This document shows, piece by piece, positions 35,797 through 46,623 of a DNA stretch of 48,460 bases (position 1 is the stretch's first letter; each line of letters opens with the position of its first letter). Location of the stretch: the IMG/VR virus record IMGVR_UViG_3300017593_000129, positions 1 through 48,460 of that record. One strand, 5' to 3'. The notes below the pieces were generated by a model that ran no database searches, had not been told where the DNA came from, and worked only from the letters and a program-made list of their open reading frames with translations. The DNA is from a virus. The translations under genes and the position numbers were made by a program.

Positions 35797-38700
35797 ATGG
35801 CTACTCTTGCACATTGTATTAAGCTTCATTCGTTAAATCCCCAAATTGCTGTTCGGATCGAAGATGTTCGCAAACAGTATATCACTGAGGGACATCCGGC
35901 CCAGGTTGCTACCGAACGGGCAATTAACGACATTATTGGCCAGGCGCAGGCCCAGCTTGATGAAGTGGTATCTCAGATAAATGATAAGATCGCAGCCCAA
36001 AACAAAACGATTGACGATGAGATTAACGATATAAGCATGGATGATCTCGGGGCCATGTTTGACGAAGCAGGTAAGTCGCCGGAACAGGGGCAGGCCAACG
36101 CGAAGCCGAAAGCTCCGAGGAAGAAAGCGGAAGCGGAACCGCCCAGTGTAAAGAAAAATACCGCAAAAGACATTGTCGCGGATGCGGCAAAGTCAGGGGT
36201 TGAAGGTCTTGAAGAGGCAGCGAATGGGCTTTATGCGTTATTTGGTGGTGGTGATTCCACCTTAATGTCATTCCCTGCTGGGTTCAATCAAGATACTTAT
36301 GCGGCAGCTAAACCTCATTTCGCCACTGCTTTACAGAAATTCAAGGAAGCCGGCCAGGGGTTACGGGAATTTGTTGCTTTTGTCCGGGATAAATTCGGGG
36401 CCGGGGCCAAAATGTATTTGATGAAGTTTGTCCAGGACATGAAAGACGGAATCCTTGACAAAAATGGAAATGTAGTTAAACTAGAAGGTGAGCCAAAACT
36501 AGAAGGAGGACAGGACAATGTACCAAACAACAGCGCTGAATTACCTGCAGGGGAACAAACCGAACCTGGGGGAGGACCCGAAAAAAGCAGCGAGAGTGGC
36601 AGCGGAAATGGCGAAAGAGAGGGAAGCGAAGATAATGGAGAAAATGACCAAGGGGAAATCGCTGGACAGCCTGGAAAGCCTACAGGAGATAAAGCGGGCG
36701 CAGAGGACAGCCAGGGAGATAGCGACCAGCGAAATGATAGACTTCCTCAGCAACCTTTAGACTACTCCATTACCGATGATGATGCTCTTGGCAAAGGCGG
36801 AGCGAAGACAAAAGCCCGGCAGAATATTGCGGCCATCAAGATCGTCAAGAAGCTCATCGAAGAGAACCGACAAGCCACTAAAGAAGAACAGGCAGCACTT
36901 GTTAAGTATGTGGGGTGGGGCGCTTCTGAGTTGGCCAATGGCCTCTTCCCGGTAAGAACTGCTTGGGATGCCAAGTCTAAAAAATTCCTTCCGGTTTACA
37001 AAGAGGGATGGGAATCTTTAGGCAAGCAAGTCAGAGGTTTATTGACTGACGAAGAATATGAGCAGGCAAAAGCGTCAACAGTCAATGCCCACTACACATC
37101 CCCTGAAGTTATCAGATCGATGTATGCTGCCTTGGAGCAGATGGGCTTCAAGGGTGGCAGGATTCTTGAACCAGGTTCCGGAATTGGCAACTTTCTTGGG
37201 CTGCTCCCTGAATCTCTCAAGGGCAGCACATTCACTGCCGTTGAAATGGATGCTATCAGTGCCGCTATTTCAAAATATCTTTATCCTTCTCACGATATCC
37301 GTCACCAGGACTTCACCCAAACAATTCTCCCGGACAACTTCTTTGATGTAGCTATCGGGAACCCTCCATTTTCTGACACTAAAATCCTTTCAGATCCACG
37401 GTATGCAAAGAAAAAGTTTGCCCTTCATGATTATTTCTTTGCCAAGACGATGGACAAAGTGCGTCCAGGTGGGTTGATGATACTTGTTACCAGCCGCTAC
37501 ACCATGGACAAAACGGATGACAAGGCCAGGGAATACCTCTCGAAACAAGCTGACTTCCTGGGAGCAATCAGGCTACCACAAACAGCTTTTAAGCAAAATG
37601 CCGGGACTGATGTTGTCACTGATGTTATTTTTCTCCGCAAGAGGGTTGACGGAGAGCAACCTGCCGGCGAAGCATGGGGAGAGTTGGTGCCTGTAAGGAT
37701 AAACAAAAAATCTGTCCACATTAATCAATACTTTGCTTCTAATCCTGGAATGATTCTCGGGACAAATTCTCTTGAAGGAAGCATGTATGGTGCCCAGCAA
37801 TATACCGTAAAACCTAAACGGGGGAAACAACTCGGAGAACTATTCCAGGAGGCTATCAAGAAGTTACCCCGAGACCTTTATGAAAAAGAAGACCCCGGGA
37901 CAGCAAACGCCAATGAGTCATTGGAAGCTGATTTTGCTCCAAACAACGTTAAGGAGGGGGCTTTTTACCTCGATAAAAAGGGAACCCTGCTTGTCAGGCA
38001 AAACGGAGTTGGGGTAAAATCAAAAGCCACAGGTATCAACAAAAAGAAGATCATAGCATTCACAGGCATAAGGGATGCGGTGCGAAACGTCTTATATGTC
38101 CAGCTGAAGGGGCATGATGATACAGAGTTAAAGGCCGCTCAGGCCGTAATGGAAAAACATTATGACGCTTTTGTGAAAAAGTTTGGGGCTCTCAACGAAA
38201 AGAAGGTTTCCACTCATGTCAACAAGGCGGGCAAAACCATAACCCGCACGACCTATCCCAACCTGCAACCATTCAGGAAGACTGATCCGGAGGCATATCT
38301 GGTTGCATCGATAGAAGAGTACAACGAAGATACTTTAGAAGCCACAAAAGGAGATATTTTCACTAAGAGGGTTATCGACCCCCAAGTAGAACCCGATATA
38401 GAATCCATTGAAGATGCGTTGAACGTATCATTGGCCCGGTTAGGTAAAATTGACATTGCGGATATTGCCAAGCTGATGAATATTCCAGAGGAAGACGCCA
38501 TTGCGGGGTTGGGGGACACTATCTTTTCTAACCCCACAAATGGGGAATGGGAGACTGACGATGAATACCTCCAGGGGAATGTCAAAGAAAAGTTGGCTCA
38601 GGCCCAGGCCGCAGCAATGGTGGACAAAAAGTTTGACAAAAACGTAAAAGCCCTTGAAGAAATACAGCCTGAAGACTTGCCTCCGTCAAAGACACCTATT

Positions 38701-41700
38701 AATCTAGGGATGCCAATCGTTACTTCTGATGATTTAAAAAAGTTTGCGAGAGAAATATTCGACGGGGACCTTCAAATAAGCCACAATGCACTACTCGGAA
38801 CCTGGAACGTTAAGAACAACAACGGGCGAATAAGTGTTGCGGCCACAACCGATTTTGGGACTTCCCGCGTCCCAGCGCATGAACTACTGACTTCTGCTCT
38901 GAACTCCAAGACAGTGGTTGTCAAAGATGCTGTCCCTGACGGTTCCGGGGGAACGAGGCAAGTAGTGTCAAAAGGCGCTACCATTGCCGCTAATGTAAAA
39001 CTCGAACAATTAAAGAAACGGTTTAAAGATTGGATATGGGAGGATAACGACAGGGCTGCTTATTACACCAAAGCATACAACGAAAGATATAACGTTTTCG
39101 TCAAACAGCATACCAATAGTGCGTTCATTAAGGCTATGACATTCCCAGGGGTGTCCGCCAGTATCCATCCATACGAACACCAGAAACGAATTGCCTGGCG
39201 CATCGTTCAAAAAGGCAACACCTACATGGCCCACAGTGTCGGCGCAGGCAAAACTATCGGATCTATCCTTGCGGGGATGGAGCTAAAGCGATTGGGAATT
39301 AAGAAGAAACCAATGTGGGTTATTCCAAACCACATGCTGAAACAGTTTTCTGCTGAGTTTTACGAACTGTATCCTGCGGCAAGGTTATTGATTGCAGATG
39401 AAAGTCAGTTTTCGAGGGCATTACGACAAAAGTTTATCGGTAAAATTGCCACGGGTAATTGGGATGGGATTATCATTACCCATGCCGCATTTAAAAAGAT
39501 TCCGCTAAGCGCCCAATTCCAGGCAGATATGATAAATGAACAAATCGAAGAGTATGCCGAGGCGTATAGAGACGCACAGGGAGATCGGCTAAAACGCAAA
39601 AAGCTCGAAGCCGCTCTTAGGAAATTAAGAGAAAAACTTGCAAGGGTTATGAATGATGCTACTGCTGACAGGGGCGTAACCTTTGAAGAATCCGGAATAG
39701 ACCAACTGTTTGTTGATGAAGCGCATGAGTTCCGGAAGCTGATGTTTGCAACCAATCAGGGCGATATGAAGGGGGTGGACCCTAATGGCTCAAATATGGC
39801 TTTTGATTTATTCATGAAGATACGGTATCTCGAATCATTAACCCCTAACAGATCAGCCGTATTCATGTCGGGGACTCCTATAACAAACACTCTTGGGGAA
39901 GTCTTTTCCATCCAAAGGATGTTACAATTACCGTTGTTGAAAAAATTAGGATTAGATAAGTTCGATGCGTGGGCATCTACGTTTACAACAACTACCACCC
40001 AACCGGAAGCTCAACCAAGCGGGAATTACAAGGTTATTACCAGATTAGGAGAATTCCAAAACCTTGAAACGTTGGTTGGGATGTGGGCCGATGTCGGGGA
40101 TTATGTCCATGCAAAGGATTTGCACTATATCACTCGTCCAAGGATAAAAGGCGGCGGCAGAAAAATGGTTGTGGCTGATGAGACAGAAGTATTGGCGCGA
40201 TACAGATCACAGTTGGGAGAAAGGATAAAAGCCATTGAACGACGTTCAGGCCCAGCACACAAAGGTGATGACATTATTCTGTCAGTTATTACCGATGGTA
40301 GACATGCAGCGCTGGATGACCGATTCATTGACCCAACTTTACCACCCAACCCTAACGGTAAATTAGAAAAGATGATCGGCAATGTTTTTGATATCTGGAA
40401 AAGGACCAAAGAGAATAAATCGGCCCAAATGATATTCGCAGATGAAGGACTGCCACAAGCCTTCGAGAAACGCGGCTTCTCTCCTTACCTGGAGATTAAA
40501 AGACGGCTTATCGAAATGGGTGTGCCGGAAGAAGAAATTGCCTTCATGCAGGATTTCAAGAAGTCCGAAGAAAAACGAAAATTATTTAACCAAGTTAATA
40601 ATGGTGATGTCCGGGTTCTTATTGGATCGTCTCAGGCCATGGGAACAGGCGTAAACGCTCAGGAGCGTCTTGTGGCCCTTCACCATCTTGATGCTGACCG
40701 TTATTTGCCTGCCATGATCGAGCAACGTGAAGGACGAATCATCCGGCAAGGCAATAGCAATGAAGAAATAGAAATCTACGCTTACATTACCAAGGGGTCA
40801 ATGGACGAGAATATGTGGCAATTCCTGGAATCTAAGCAAAGGTTTATTGACCAGTTCCTTGCTGGGAATGCCACGGTATCAACCACCGAGGATATAGATA
40901 AGGGCAGCAATTTATTTGCGCTGGCGAAAGCAATGGCCTCCAATAATCCCCTAATCCTTGAAAAGGCAACGATTGAAAATCAGATCATGCGGCTTGAGGC
41001 ATTGCATAGATCATTCATCGACAGCAAACATGCTATGCTGGGTGAAGCTAAACGGGCAGAAAGAGAAATCCCTGACGCAGAATTAGGGATTAAGACGCTT
41101 GAAAAAGCTATTGCCAGCAGGATATCAACCAAGGGTGATAAATTCAAGATGACCCTTGACGGAAAAATATACACAGATAGAACGGAAGTGGGTAAAGCTC
41201 TACTGAAAAAAGTGTTCAGTGGAAAGATTTCTACCGATAGAAAACAAATTGGTTCTATCGGGGGGTTCCCCTTGAGGATATATGCTAGTGATGATGAAAT
41301 GACCCTGATCAATTATGAGTTGATTAGTGATGATTACCAACTCTATCGGAAACATTTTTTCACAAATAACGCTGACTGGTATAAGGACGAAAGCCACATC
41401 GGGCTTATCATGGCAATGGAGACCTCTATCCGTAACCTGGATAACAGGTTAGCCGAAACAAAAGAGTTCATTGAACAAGCCAACAAGAAAATAGCTGACG
41501 CAAAGGCCAGAGAGGATAATGTTTTTGAACATGCCGATAAATTAAAAGAGAAGGAAGCCAGGCTCAAAGCTATCAATGATGAGCTAGTTATAAAAGACCA
41601 TGCAGAAACAACGCCGTCTACCGACAACACCCCAACATTTTCCCCACGTAAGGGAAATATCACCAATAAAGGAGGTGTCAAATATGGTACCCCGGTGGCA

Positions 41701-44700
41701 ACTGATAACACCAGCAGATTACAGACGCAGATTGAGGAACATACAGGTAAGAAATATGCCGAAGGTTCCTACCAAGAGGTTAAAGTGTCTGACGATTATG
41801 CTGGAATCGCCAAACGTCTCCAGCGAATCTTCCAAAAAAAGATAGTTTTTTTCAAACAAACCAACCCTGATGCTCTTGATTTCAATGGGGTAGCCTTCAA
41901 AGAAGAACCCCATACCATGTATATCAATGTTGATGGTGACTACCATGTCCAGACTATCATCGGCCATGAGCTGTTACATACAATGGAGAAAACAGCCCCA
42001 AAAATTTATAAAGAATTTCTCAGGGCTGCGTTAAGCGAGATGTATGAGGATGAGTTCGCTGTCCAACACTTAAAGCTGGCAGAACAAAGAGCTGATGCAG
42101 GCAAGTCCGCTCCTACCAAACAGGAAACTTACGAGGAAATGCTTGGTGATTTCTTAGGCGACAACATTACTGATCAGACTTTTTGGGACAAGGTTGCCGC
42201 TCGGATGCCAGAGATATTCCATGACCTGGTGAAATTTGTCACCAAATATCTTAATAAGATTAAATCAAAGATGAAGCTGGAAGGTATGGGTTCGAGTTCA
42301 TACTTCAGGGATGTCCAAAAAGTGCAGGATGCCGCGGCTAAAGCGATGGCAGAATTTAGCCAAATTCAGAATGGAGAATCCCTGAGCGAAGGGGTATTAT
42401 TCTCTCCCGAACAATCTCACCAGATTTGGTATTCAAAAATGGAGGCAGTATTAAACGCCAAATTGCCAGGTAAAGGTGTTGGGAAAATGCTGGCTAATAT
42501 GGTGCAGTCATGGTCAAAAAAGGGTGAGTTTAAGAAAGACGAATTGGCATGGAGTGGTTTAACTGACTGGTTGAATCGGCAGGGAGACAAAGTTACTAAA
42601 CAACAGGTTCTTGATTACCTGGAAGAGAACAACTTGCAGATCGAAGAGGTGGAGAAGGGCATCAAAACGACCAAGGAACTTGATGATTTGTATTTTAAGA
42701 GAGGCCTTGCCATTTTGCATAACCAAGAAACCCCAGAGCTAGACAAGAAAATTACAGCATTAGAAATAAAACTCCAGTCTACCAAATATGAATCTAAACA
42801 ACTCCCCGGCGGCAAGGATTACCGTGAATTGTTGATTACAATGCCGGGGGATGACAGGTCTGCAAGAGATAAAGCAACAGTAGCTTTTCGGAATAAAATA
42901 TATAAAAAATTAGGTAAGAATAGTTTTGACTATGAAGATTTGACTGATGCTGAGATAGACGAGTTTGATGAAATACAGAAAATGTCTGGCACTCCAGCAA
43001 AGTCTTACAGATCCCCCCACTTCGGTGAACCCAACATCCTCGTTCACATCCGGTTCAATGAGCGTGAGGTTGACGGCAAGCGGGTGATGTTTTTAGAAGA
43101 GGTACAAAGCGATTGGGCGCAAACAGGACGGAAGAAAGGGTTTAAAACAGAATTAACCAAAGAAGAACAAAAAGAAATTGATAATCTTATTGCTAAAAAA
43201 GAAAAGATATATATTGAATATGGTGGAGCTAAGGAAGTTATTGCCAAAGGGAAACAAAAAGGAGCACCTGAAGAATTAAAAAAAGCTTTCGATGAAATTC
43301 ATAACATTAATGGCAGAATAAACGAAATACAAATGTCAGCAAATGGTGTCCCCAATATGCCTTTCAAAGATTCCTCCAAATGGGCTACACTTGCCATCAA
43401 GCGAGCAATCCGTTGGGCGGCTGAAAATGGCTTTGACAGGGTAGAATGGACGACCGGAGAGCAACAGGCAGAGCGGTATGATTTAAGTAAGCAGATAAGC
43501 AGAATAAGGTACAGAAAAGCTGGTGATAAATTTGAGATAAGAGCAGAAAAAGGACAAGATGTAGTTTTGTCTAAAACTGCGAGGCCAGAAGAGTTAGAAG
43601 ATGTTGTGGGAAAAGATATTGTTCGCAAAATGGTTAATAATGAAGGAACCCAACTTAACGATGGAGGAATTTTTACTCATAAATTAGAAGGTCTTGACCT
43701 TAAAGTTGGTGGTGAAGGAATGAAAGGGTTTTACGACAAGATCGTTCCTGCTGCCGTACAGAAGTATATCAAGAAGTTTGGGGCTAAAGTAGCATTAAGC
43801 GAAGGCAAACCAAGCGCCACGGAGTACGGGCAGCAGTGGGGATTCGATGTTACAGATAAGATGCGTGATACAGCGATGGGAGGGCAACCAGTATTCTCTC
43901 CTCGGAAAAAAGCAACCCCATCTTCAGAGATTAACCCAAATGATGACAAGGGAAATGCCCCAGGCGACGAACAAGGGAAGAAAACCAATGCCATAGTTGA
44001 TACTGTCACCGGAGGCCCGGATACTGCCAGGGATATAGAGCAAGATCGGCTATTCACCATGAAAATATTTGAATACCGTGATCTTGCTCAGAAGAAAGCC
44101 AACAATATTGCCGTCCAGATAGAACAGCAGATTCAACAAATGGCCGGCAGTACACGGAAGTGGAAAGGCCCGTTAGCGTATAACCGGCTAAAGGATTCTA
44201 CGAAGGCCAGGCAGCTCAGTGAAGCAATGATGGTTTACCGTGACCTGAAACGGGATCCATCAGCGGAACAGACTTTCAGGGATTGGGCAAAAGAACAGCT
44301 CCATTCGGGAACCTTGGGAAAGGTGGAGACCAGGAAACTCCAGGAAAAAGTTGCTATCTTGGATCTGGCATCAAATTTATCACAGGAACAGAAAGACTTT
44401 GTTGATAATGATATTGATGAACTTTTCAAGGCAGTAGGTGAACGGGCACAGGCAACAGGCTTAGTCAATACCTTGCTTGATAATTATGTGAGACGGTTAT
44501 GGACGCTTCCGGACAAAAAGAAATTTACCGGGCTGGCGAATGGGTACGGGTTTAAAGTCTGGACATCTGCCAGTAAGCAGCGGACATTAAATACTATCCT
44601 TGATGGGTGGATGGCTGGATATGATTTGAAGGTTAAAGGCATCCATAATTCTTATGACCAGATTGCCCGCGAAATTGCCGGGATCGAAGCCGACCTTGCC

Positions 44701-46623
44701 TTCATCATCTCCGGGAAAAAGACAAAGGATCTTGACGGACACTCCCTTTTTACCACCAGTAACCTTGACGGATATGAAGAACTAAAAGACCCAGGGTTTG
44801 GAGTTTGGGTTGCTTCCGGCAAGGTTGCCGGCGGCCCACTTGCCACAGATGAAGATGGTAATTTAACTGATGATAGTTTTCTTTTGGAAGTGAATACGTT
44901 TGGACAAAAGGTTTTCGTCGCCCCACCTGATGGAAAAAACACGTCAACGATTTATGAAAAGCGGCAGCTAAAGGCACCTAAACAGCTTGCCGACATGATA
45001 AACAAGGTTACGGCACGAGACGATCTTTTCAGCTCTATCCCATTTATGGATAAGGCATCAAAGTTTAATCGGATCACGAAAGGGTGGATATTGCTGTCCA
45101 GCTTTTTCCACCATTTAGCTGGCTCCAGGTCTTGGTTTTTAGGCGTTCACCATGGTACCAAGATCAATCCTGTCATCGCCTATAAACGGGGATTGAAAAA
45201 GATTGAAGGGATGCACCCCATTGTTCAGCTTGGGATAAAGAACGGCCTCACCTATGGGCTGCGGCAGGATTTTGACGAAGCGTACTTTACTGAGGATACT
45301 GTATTTGAGCAGATATTCAAACGTCTGGATATGGACAAAGCATTAAAAGGTGCGGAATGGGTGAAGCAGAAGCGCAATTCCTTCACTAACTCACTCTTTA
45401 AGCACTTCTTTGCCGGATTGAAAGCCGAAGCCTTTGTTATTGAATTCACTCACGAATTAAATAAAGACAAAAGTCAAGATCAAGACCGCTTGGCTGAAAG
45501 AATTGCCACGCTGATGAATGCTGACTTTGGTGGGTTGCACCTTAAACGGATGGGAAGAAACCCAACATTACAAAAATTTGCCCAATTAATACAATTGGCA
45601 GCAGACTGGACCGAGTCTAATTTCCGTACTGTTACCGGTATGATCCCTGGAATGAACAAGGCAATATCTAAGCTCCTGGGTGAGCTTCCACCTCCTCCAG
45701 GGATGGACAAGGTTTATCGCCATTTTTGGGGTAGGGTGATATTCTCCTCGGTATTGTCTACCCTGATTCCTCAGTTGCTTCTTAACGCCTGGACTCCTGA
45801 TGACCGGGACGACCTGCTTGATTTTTATCGTGAGCAGTTTAGCTCTTGGAAACAATTCCGGCGATTGCGCTGGACAGCCGTTGACATTACAAAACTATAC
45901 CATGCCTTGGGTGTTGATATCCCAGACAACCAACGGAAAACCTTTTCCGTTATCGGGCATTTTGCAGACCCCCTAAAGATTATGGATATTGACCGGCTAA
46001 TAAAAGCAAAAGGTTCGCCAATCGTCAGAATTGCAGACAACCTTTTCTCTGGGACAGATTGGGCTAAAAGGCCATATACAGGCGTTAAAGAACTGGTAAA
46101 AACCCATAAGACCGTCAAAAAATCACGCTACCAGAAAACTGAAAATGTTTTCAGCCGATTGCCATCGGCAATTATCGGCTCCGCAAAAGGAGTGCTGCCG
46201 ATCCAGGCAAACGAGTTGATCAGTTACCTGATGGGTGAACAGGATGGATGGTCGGCGTTGTTTACCAGTGCTGGAGCGCATCCGTCGAACACATACACTC
46301 CTGATATCACGGGAAATCAATACAAGGAGCTACGCAGCAACGTTCTAAGAGTGGAACGAGAGGCAAAGGCTTTGCGGCTAGGAAAAGATAAACCTGGAGC
46401 AAAAAAGCTGATCATTAAAGAGTTCGGAAGCCTGGGTAACTTTTATGCTTTGAAACATTTATACGTTGCTACCAGGACGGGCTTGACTCCGCTCAATAAA
46501 CGTTTAAGAGTCCTGCGTGAAGGGAAGAAAATACCCCGGAGAGCCGAACGTATTGAAAAAATGAAATCGGCAATCGCAAATAAACAGCAGAAGTTTATTG
46601 ATCGATACCAAAAAGTACAATAG
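35797..46623 (+). CDS. Giant polyvalent protein: methyltransferase, SF2 helicase, metalloprotease-like
   Basis: This is a 3608-residue protein of the polyvalent/DarB type. In order: an N-terminal part with a low-complexity linker (~240-325), and a class I methyltransferase with motif I EPGSGIGNF (458-466) and NPPF (522-525). A helicase follows with GAGKT (1149-1153), DEAH (1307-1310), SGTP (1358-1361), GTGVNAQ (1616-1622) and QREGRIIRQG (1643-1652). After coiled coils comes a zinc metalloprotease-type HELLH (2057-2061), then a polyvalent-associated domain (EEVQSDW 2434-2440, WTTGEQQAERYDL 2551-2563), and a long helical C-terminal part with an amphipathic segment near 3098. Relatives protect incoming DNA from host restriction. 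The place at the end of the virion operon suggests packaging and ejection. Confidence 0.85.
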   Translation: MATLAHCIKLHSLNPQIAVRIEDVRKQYITEGHPAQVATERAINDIIGQAQAQLDEVVSQINDKIAAQNKTIDDEINDISMDDLGAMFDEAGKSPEQGQANAKPKAPRKKAEAEPPSVKKNTAKDIVADAAKSGVEGLEEAANGLYALFGGGDSTLMSFPAGFNQDTYAAAKPHFATALQKFKEAGQGLREFVAFVRDKFGAGAKMYLMKFVQDMKDGILDKNGNVVKLEGEPKLEGGQDNVPNNSAELPAGEQTEPGGGPEKSSESGSGNGEREGSEDNGENDQGEIAGQPGKPTGDKAGAEDSQGDSDQRNDRLPQQPLDYSITDDDALGKGGAKTKARQNIAAIKIVKKLIEENRQATKEEQAALVKYVGWGASELANGLFPVRTAWDAKSKKFLPVYKEGWESLGKQVRGLLTDEEYEQAKASTVNAHYTSPEVIRSMYAALEQMGFKGGRILEPGSGIGNFLGLLPESLKGSTFTAVEMDAISAAISKYLYPSHDIRHQDFTQTILPDNFFDVAIGNPPFSDTKILSDPRYAKKKFALHDYFFAKTMDKVRPGGLMILVTSRYTMDKTDDKAREYLSKQADFLGAIRLPQTAFKQNAGTDVVTDVIFLRKRVDGEQPAGEAWGELVPVRINKKSVHINQYFASNPGMILGTNSLEGSMYGAQQYTVKPKRGKQLGELFQEAIKKLPRDLYEKEDPGTANANESLEADFAPNNVKEGAFYLDKKGTLLVRQNGVGVKSKATGINKKKIIAFTGIRDAVRNVLYVQLKGHDDTELKAAQAVMEKHYDAFVKKFGALNEKKVSTHVNKAGKTITRTTYPNLQPFRKTDPEAYLVASIEEYNEDTLEATKGDIFTKRVIDPQVEPDIESIEDALNVSLARLGKIDIADIAKLMNIPEEDAIAGLGDTIFSNPTNGEWETDDEYLQGNVKEKLAQAQAAAMVDKKFDKNVKALEEIQPEDLPPSKTPINLGMPIVTSDDLKKFAREIFDGDLQISHNALLGTWNVKNNNGRISVAATTDFGTSRVPAHELLTSALNSKTVVVKDAVPDGSGGTRQVVSKGATIAANVKLEQLKKRFKDWIWEDNDRAAYYTKAYNERYNVFVKQHTNSAFIKAMTFPGVSASIHPYEHQKRIAWRIVQKGNTYMAHSVGAGKTIGSILAGMELKRLGIKKKPMWVIPNHMLKQFSAEFYELYPAARLLIADESQFSRALRQKFIGKIATGNWDGIIITHAAFKKIPLSAQFQADMINEQIEEYAEAYRDAQGDRLKRKKLEAALRKLREKLARVMNDATADRGVTFEESGIDQLFVDEAHEFRKLMFATNQGDMKGVDPNGSNMAFDLFMKIRYLESLTPNRSAVFMSGTPITNTLGEVFSIQRMLQLPLLKKLGLDKFDAWASTFTTTTTQPEAQPSGNYKVITRLGEFQNLETLVGMWADVGDYVHAKDLHYITRPRIKGGGRKMVVADETEVLARYRSQLGERIKAIERRSGPAHKGDDIILSVITDGRHAALDDRFIDPTLPPNPNGKLEKMIGNVFDIWKRTKENKSAQMIFADEGLPQAFEKRGFSPYLEIKRRLIEMGVPEEEIAFMQDFKKSEEKRKLFNQVNNGDVRVLIGSSQAMGTGVNAQERLVALHHLDADRYLPAMIEQREGRIIRQGNSNEEIEIYAYITKGSMDENMWQFLESKQRFIDQFLAGNATVSTTEDIDKGSNLFALAKAMASNNPLILEKATIENQIMRLEALHRSFIDSKHAMLGEAKRAEREIPDAELGIKTLEKAIASRISTKGDKFKMTLDGKIYTDRTEVGKALLKKVFSGKISTDRKQIGSIGGFPLRIYASDDEMTLINYELISDDYQLYRKHFFTNNADWYKDESHIGLIMAMETSIRNLDNRLAETKEFIEQANKKIADAKAREDNVFEHADKLKEKEARLKAINDELVIKDHAETTPSTDNTPTFSPRKGNITNKGGVKYGTPVATDNTSRLQTQIEEHTGKKYAEGSYQEVKVSDDYAGIAKRLQRIFQKKIVFFKQTNPDALDFNGVAFKEEPHTMYINVDGDYHVQTIIGHELLHTMEKTAPKIYKEFLRAALSEMYEDEFAVQHLKLAEQRADAGKSAPTKQETYEEMLGDFLGDNITDQTFWDKVAARMPEIFHDLVKFVTKYLNKIKSKMKLEGMGSSSYFRDVQKVQDAAAKAMAEFSQIQNGESLSEGVLFSPEQSHQIWYSKMEAVLNAKLPGKGVGKMLANMVQSWSKKGEFKKDELAWSGLTDWLNRQGDKVTKQQVLDYLEENNLQIEEVEKGIKTTKELDDLYFKRGLAILHNQETPELDKKITALEIKLQSTKYESKQLPGGKDYRELLITMPGDDRSARDKATVAFRNKIYKKLGKNSFDYEDLTDAEIDEFDEIQKMSGTPAKSYRSPHFGEPNILVHIRFNEREVDGKRVMFLEEVQSDWAQTGRKKGFKTELTKEEQKEIDNLIAKKEKIYIEYGGAKEVIAKGKQKGAPEELKKAFDEIHNINGRINEIQMSANGVPNMPFKDSSKWATLAIKRAIRWAAENGFDRVEWTTGEQQAERYDLSKQISRIRYRKAGDKFEIRAEKGQDVVLSKTARPEELEDVVGKDIVRKMVNNEGTQLNDGGIFTHKLEGLDLKVGGEGMKGFYDKIVPAAVQKYIKKFGAKVALSEGKPSATEYGQQWGFDVTDKMRDTAMGGQPVFSPRKKATPSSEINPNDDKGNAPGDEQGKKTNAIVDTVTGGPDTARDIEQDRLFTMKIFEYRDLAQKKANNIAVQIEQQIQQMAGSTRKWKGPLAYNRLKDSTKARQLSEAMMVYRDLKRDPSAEQTFRDWAKEQLHSGTLGKVETRKLQEKVAILDLASNLSQEQKDFVDNDIDELFKAVGERAQATGLVNTLLDNYVRRLWTLPDKKKFTGLANGYGFKVWTSASKQRTLNTILDGWMAGYDLKVKGIHNSYDQIAREIAGIEADLAFIISGKKTKDLDGHSLFTTSNLDGYEELKDPGFGVWVASGKVAGGPLATDEDGNLTDDSFLLEVNTFGQKVFVAPPDGKNTSTIYEKRQLKAPKQLADMINKVTARDDLFSSIPFMDKASKFNRITKGWILLSSFFHHLAGSRSWFLGVHHGTKINPVIAYKRGLKKIEGMHPIVQLGIKNGLTYGLRQDFDEAYFTEDTVFEQIFKRLDMDKALKGAEWVKQKRNSFTNSLFKHFFAGLKAEAFVIEFTHELNKDKSQDQDRLAERIATLMNADFGGLHLKRMGRNPTLQKFAQLIQLAADWTESNFRTVTGMIPGMNKAISKLLGELPPPPGMDKVYRHFWGRVIFSSVLSTLIPQLLLNAWTPDDRDDLLDFYREQFSSWKQFRRLRWTAVDITKLYHALGVDIPDNQRKTFSVIGHFADPLKIMDIDRLIKAKGSPIVRIADNLFSGTDWAKRPYTGVKELVKTHKTVKKSRYQKTENVFSRLPSAIIGSAKGVLPIQANELISYLMGEQDGWSALFTSAGAHPSNTYTPDITGNQYKELRSNVLRVEREAKALRLGKDKPGAKKLIIKEFGSLGNFYALKHLYVATRTGLTPLNKRLRVLREGKKIPRRAERIEKMKSAIANKQQKFIDRYQKVQ
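36518..36760 (+). CDS. Possible overlapping gene inside the giant gene
   Basis: This 80-codon ORF lies in the +1 frame relative to the giant gene, with GGAGGA at 36505-36510 seven bases before its ATG. The product is a plausible helical, charged protein (DPKKAARVAAEMAKEREAKI, SLDSLESLQEIKRAQRTARE) with bacterial-type codons such as repeated CTG and GCG. In the giant frame the same DNA encodes a low-complexity Gly/Ser/Glu/Asn/Asp linker. Either this is a real embedded gene, or a former separate gene was overprinted when the flanking parts fused. Not proven. Confidence 0.45.
   Translation: MYQTTALNYLQGNKPNLGEDPKKAARVAAEMAKEREAKIMEKMTKGKSLDSLESLQEIKRAQRTAREIATSEMIDFLSNL

Follow-up and report, generated by a model that had tools for sequence, protein, structure and literature searches.

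A probable TnpV-superfamily gene inside a phage DarB-like methylase-helicase gene, read in the +1 frame

Several described systems bear on the locus considered here. DarB-like polyvalent proteins, a class with an LPD36-methylase-SF2 helicase dyad and with a GXGU motif in LPD36, were described by Iyer et al. 2017 (PMC5512222). TnpV of the Tn4451/Tn6104-type mobilisable transposons is reported to have a gene of its own, next to a large serine recombinase, and has been postulated to act as a Xis-like excision factor (PMC3158075). Nested genes are themselves familiar from Rz1 within Rz, and JC1, a phage of the group considered here, carries an embedded Rz1 (PMC9144972). The window, by which we mean the whole 48,460-nucleotide stretch of viral DNA analysed (IMG/VR record IMGVR_UViG_3300017593_000129), combines elements of all three. 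Its host gene resembles the DarB-like class in joining a giant adenine methylase to an SNF2-type helicase and in its phage or conjugative element settings. The gene inside it resembles the transposon TnpV in size and in its mobile-element setting, but it lies within a methylase-helicase gene rather than standing apart, and Firmicutes TnpV itself is often nested. Like Rz1, it is complete, has a start of its own and is read in a different frame from the longer gene around it. Its protein is unrelated to Rz1, however, its host frame is a linker within a giant anti-restriction gene, and pairs of this kind occur in phages, in plasmids and in chromosomal elements from several phyla. Searching the text of PMC5512222 for the terms, we found no mention of an overlapping gene or of TnpV, and a full-text literature search returned no report of TnpV nested in a DarB-like giant; subscription journals lie mostly outside that search, so an earlier notice is possible. 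Neither the protein family nor the family of the host gene is new; the nesting of one in the other is apparently unreported.

Aligned across some 480-515 residues, the giant (Table 1) shares 37-44% identity with proteins annotated as DarB-like in Burkholderia, Klebsiella, Pseudomonas, Vibrio and further phages. The tetrapeptide GWGA, encoded at 36913-36924, fits the LPD36 GXGU motif, and together with the N6-adenine methylase and the SF2/SNF2 helicase motifs in a single protein it places the giant, as judged from its sequence, among the polyvalent proteins of PMC5512222. No close relative of its N-terminal region was found in the viral contigs searched.

Table 1. Features of the giant gene and of the gene nested within it (window coordinates).
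Feature	Position	Strand	Remarks
Giant host gene, 3,608-aa DarB-like polyvalent N6-adenine methylase / SNF2-type helicase	35797..46623	+	
N-terminal region of the giant, ahead of the linker	35797..36504	+	Without Pfam match
Shine-Dalgarno motif GGAGGA	36505..36510	+	7 bases between motif and nested ATG
Gly/Glu/Asp/Ser/Asn-rich linker over the nested gene	36517..36759	+	Giant codons 241-321; low complexity over codons 241-322
Probable nested gene, 80-aa TnpV-superfamily three-helix protein	36518..36760	+	Reads in +1 relative to the giant; ends with TAG at 36758-36760
Start of the conserved methylase module	36760..36990	+	Directly after the nested stop; domain end approximate
Eco57I-type N6-adenine methylase core	37309..37551	+	Giant residues 505-585; above cut-off
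SNF2-related / Helicase_C motifs	39856..40752	+	Giant residues 1354-1652; weak, below or near cut-off

The initial annotation had proposed a hidden gene in the giant, citing the spacing of a Shine-Dalgarno motif ahead of an 80-residue frame, the low complexity of the giant frame over the same bases and codon usage of a bacterial type. The letters bear out the motif, the frame and the low complexity, and what they contain is a complete reading frame with its own start and ribosome-binding motif, lying wholly inside another gene in a different frame. The codon usage is not gene-like: compared with the other genes of the window the nested frame has a log-odds of 0.011, against an off-frame 95th percentile of 0.025, a true-frame 5th percentile of 0.095 and a value of 0.17 for the giant frame. 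Nor is openness informative. When the giant protein sequence of the linker region was fixed and codons were redrawn from the giant's own usage, 80% of synonymous recodings left +1 free of stops over 85 codons or more, 54% contained an ATG-initiated frame of at least 80 codons, and 15% contained ATG plus a Shine-Dalgarno motif; few linker residues carry T at codon position 2, which by itself keeps +1 stops rare. After this simulation we dropped both openness and codon usage as evidence, and the case for a nested gene from the window alone is weak.

The stronger case comes from relatives. Direct searches with the 80-aa protein gave no match in phages, plasmids, or viral or genome contigs because it is too divergent, and the neighbouring methylase provided the entry. 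In 80 viral loci collected by methylase alone, independently of the nested frame, a homologous frame was matched by HMM at the same place in 74, and three of the other six show a nested frame by eye. Two HMMs, one each for family A (the window and Lessievirus-like members) and family B (LASTA, PEp14, VvAW1, PBC5 and others), were scanned against 1,824 candidate ORFs comprising all non-giant frames of 178 loci, and every match below E=0.01 lay in +1, with none in +2 or the reverse frames. The window ORF scored E=2e-4 with an HMM built without it, and families A and B belong together. Distant relatives translated at the same place yield a helical +1 protein whose start is conserved in nearly all. 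With contigs that had been retrieved twice counted once, 130 distinct nested proteins remain, nearly all with a Shine-Dalgarno-like motif ahead of the start and 90 with a strong one. The nearest relatives found for the window, loci L029 and L030, have methylases 60-61% identical to its own; the window's nested protein is short and divergent, with about 25-30% identity to its nearest relatives. Neither of the two shows the +1 stops or start loss that the initial annotation had named as refuting its proposal: the start is retained behind AGGAGG in L029 and AAGGAGG in L030, the C-terminus reads FLTNL or FLTSL where the window has FLSNL, and Z is 7.9 and 9.5 in +1 versus 4.8 and 6.7 in frame 0. 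An obvious nested ORF is absent from some related giants, namely those of Enterococcus (L183), Bradyrhizobium (L184) and, in the stretch seen, Subdoligranulum (L181).

Substitution patterns point the same way. The per-frame tests, which had been suggested at the outset, compare pairs of relatives, none with a close strain on the window's own branch, and they place the +1 frame under selection in most pairs. In most pairs the usual pattern is turned round in the overlap: changes avoid third positions of the giant and gather at its first positions, which are the wobble positions of the nested frame. When intervals along the whole giant are compared, the overlap mostly stands out as a local dip in third-position changes, with p values as low as 4e-18. 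The fraction of changes at giant position 3, in the overlap and in the rest of the gene, is 0.29 and 0.74 for Stean/PEp14 (p=4e-9), 0.21 and 0.67 for L198/L199 (p=3e-11), 0.15 and 0.65 for L016/L018 (p=4e-18), and 0.15 and 0.55 for LASTA/SopranoGao (p=4e-3). Two close pairs, BcepIL02/DC1 and L003/L004, reach no significance in this test because they hold too few changes. Wherever the members of a pair are divergent, the nested protein has changed less than the giant residues encoded by the same bases, and this, with the third-position pattern, argues that the giant's own frame there is a tolerated, weakly constrained linker.

The family to which the nested proteins belong can be named. Pfam PF14198 (TnpV) is matched by 49 of 74 diverse nested proteins, the best at 1.1e-30. 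By itself the window protein has no match to PF14198 over the curated cut-off, so we regard it as a distant relative in the TnpV superfamily rather than as a Pfam member. A profile led by the window protein matches Firmicutes TnpV with a probability of 97.3 (E 2e-11), and in the tree the window falls in a clade with L029 and L030 (support 98/83). AlphaFold predicts a confident three-helix fold for it (pLDDT 95.5, pTM 0.81), a plain three-helix bundle, and gives a confident helical core with a disordered tail for a member of family B; Foldseek searches returned no significant structural relative. We also considered a DNA-mimic inhibitor and found it unsupported, given the mild net charge of the proteins (median -5 per 100 aa; +2.5 for the window).

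TnpV is also found nested in Firmicutes. A Cohnella plasmid carries an annotated TnpV gene inside an unannotated methylase-helicase frame, and all 22 of the 22 close Firmicutes kin of that TnpV lie in the same +1 frame of a giant reading frame. Among the 22, only the Geosporobacter locus (L200:5344) has its giant frame interrupted directly behind TnpV. A wider sample of Firmicutes PF14198 genes held 39 classifiable cases, 21 of them nested, always in +1, and 18 stand-alone or unclear. A search for the small protein as a stand-alone gene, another of the initial suggestions, was successful: such TnpV genes exist, and those examined adjoin serine recombinases, a relaxase/ParB region or unrelated genes, a position beside a serine recombinase being also reported for Tn6104 (PMC3158075). 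Together, the homologous +1 frames, the codon-position signature, the TnpV matches, the nested Firmicutes TnpV and the confident fold indicate that the proposed hidden gene is ancient and has a helical product of the TnpV family, and from these comparisons of sequence we consider 36518-36760 very probably a genuine, translated gene.

How much room does this leave for other readings of the +1 frame? One is that low-complexity linker, with no hydrophobic residues, happens to leave +1 free of stops and that the Shine-Dalgarno motif and ATG are accidental. The recoding results and the codon usage favour this, but chance would not place a homologous protein at the same site, in +1 only, across very divergent relatives, nor produce the third-position dip in most pairs, the Pfam matches of family members or the confident fold of the window protein; at the level of the family it is already refuted, and we give it almost no credence. 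Equally improbable is that the DNA is kept as an RNA structure or packaging signal with +1 untranslated: nothing turned up in favour of this, conservation tracks the residues that a single frame encodes, the third codon positions of that frame showing wobble, and the relatives are too diverged for conservation of the DNA itself. A programmed +1 frameshift from the N-terminal part of the giant, making the small sequence the C-terminal tail of a short giant form, has some evidence in its favour: the small domain of phage PBC5 shares its frame with orf33 upstream of it, and in phrog_938 the domain forms the C-terminal end. Yet nearly all members retain their own ATG and Shine-Dalgarno motif, stand-alone TnpV genes exist, and PBC5 may reflect a sequence error or a fusion. 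An in-frame stop also lies within 15 codons upstream of the nested start in 48 of the 130 proteins and within 5 codons in 25, which fits independent initiation and makes the frameshift very unlikely.

For a separately initiated nested gene, a ribosome would start at the internal Shine-Dalgarno motif and ATG on the giant's mRNA, and such internal initiation would mean that both proteins are always co-produced and co-inherited. The constant pairing with the methylase-helicase suggests that the small protein may be a partner dedicated to it. The simplest such partner would be a chaperone or an assembly factor, which could bind the nascent or finished methylase module until phage packaging or use by the conjugative element. 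We advance this role tentatively, from co-location. The stand-alone TnpV genes next to recombinases argue for action without the giant, and an independent role for the nested protein, as in excision, is possible. The nesting gives the DarB-type anti-restriction system a constant and so far unexamined companion, and TnpV a testable role besides that of postulated excision factor.

The origin of the nesting is a separate matter. The initial annotation had suggested that two genes flanking a small one became fused across it, so that its DNA ended up as linker. Fusion concerns origin alone and is compatible with a nested gene as the best explanation of the present state; in its favour, TnpV exists alone (PMC3158075), the nested protein is folded where the giant frame is linker, and plasmids and locus L089 have helicases with only a short N-terminus ahead of the nested gene. 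Against it, members of the phage clade and of the Firmicutes group alike are nested in one and the same frame of this giant, with stand-alone genes scattered among them (5 changes on a tree with a midpoint root only), and no pre-fusion arrangement was found. The passive linker in that proposal is supported, its fusion origin is not shown, and we put fusion somewhat short of an even chance. Because both sides are nested and stand-alone copies are scattered, nesting may be ancestral and the stand-alone copies escapes, an explanation that, on the sequences compared, appears at least as good as fusion. It is conceivable, and we offer it cautiously, that TnpV, a small transposon protein of wide occurrence, was born by overprinting in the linker of an ancestral methylase-helicase gene of a mobile element, that it later escaped several times to stand alone, and that most elements keep the nested form as an obligate partner.

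Plasmids had seemed to offer the unfused state. In three of them (L016:2656-3175, L017:2680-3205 and L018:2608-3430) the annotated methylase-helicase starts too late: the helicase opens upstream with a conserved N-terminus, and once its truncated start is corrected the annotated small hypothetical gene is nested, so we rejected them as examples of that state. Related nested ORFs on Xanthomonas, Burkholderia and Stutzerimonas plasmids are likewise annotated as separate hypothetical genes, and on a Campylobacter plasmid (L182:2600-3097) an SNF2 gene contains a further nested ORF in +1, unannotated and some 160 aa long, whose product is related to small proteins of the Xanthomonas type. The link of these plasmid proteins, Campylobacter included, to TnpV is weak (probability 30%). 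A search of plasmids for stand-alone B-type proteins found none. Same-frame nesting occurs in many phages, plasmids and chromosomal mobile elements, and annotation almost always misses or mishandles the gene. Its retention in one frame across such elements makes it a rare, well-supported long-term overlap in bacteria and viruses. It also explains broken annotation: a called small gene goes with a giant that is absent or truncated, and a called giant with an absent small gene.

Some loci show further peculiarities. The helicases with a short N-terminus (L089:3647-3740; L016-L018; L184, with TLDLFG) begin with motifs like QLELFG, QLSFDF or QLAFDF, which we take to resemble the sliding-clamp binding motif. 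The PBC5 locus (L023, 1752-8309) is the sole exception seen in having its nested domain in frame with orf33, by fusion or sequence error, and phrog_938, with 2185 positions, is labelled 'endolysin'. At L121:3970-4340 the giant frame opens only just ahead of the nested gene and the upstream part is seemingly disrupted, as in a decayed prophage, or is a separate gene. In phage Itty13 (L008, 636-11503) three large annotated CDSs lie on the strand opposite the DarB-like giant, which is itself unannotated in that stretch.
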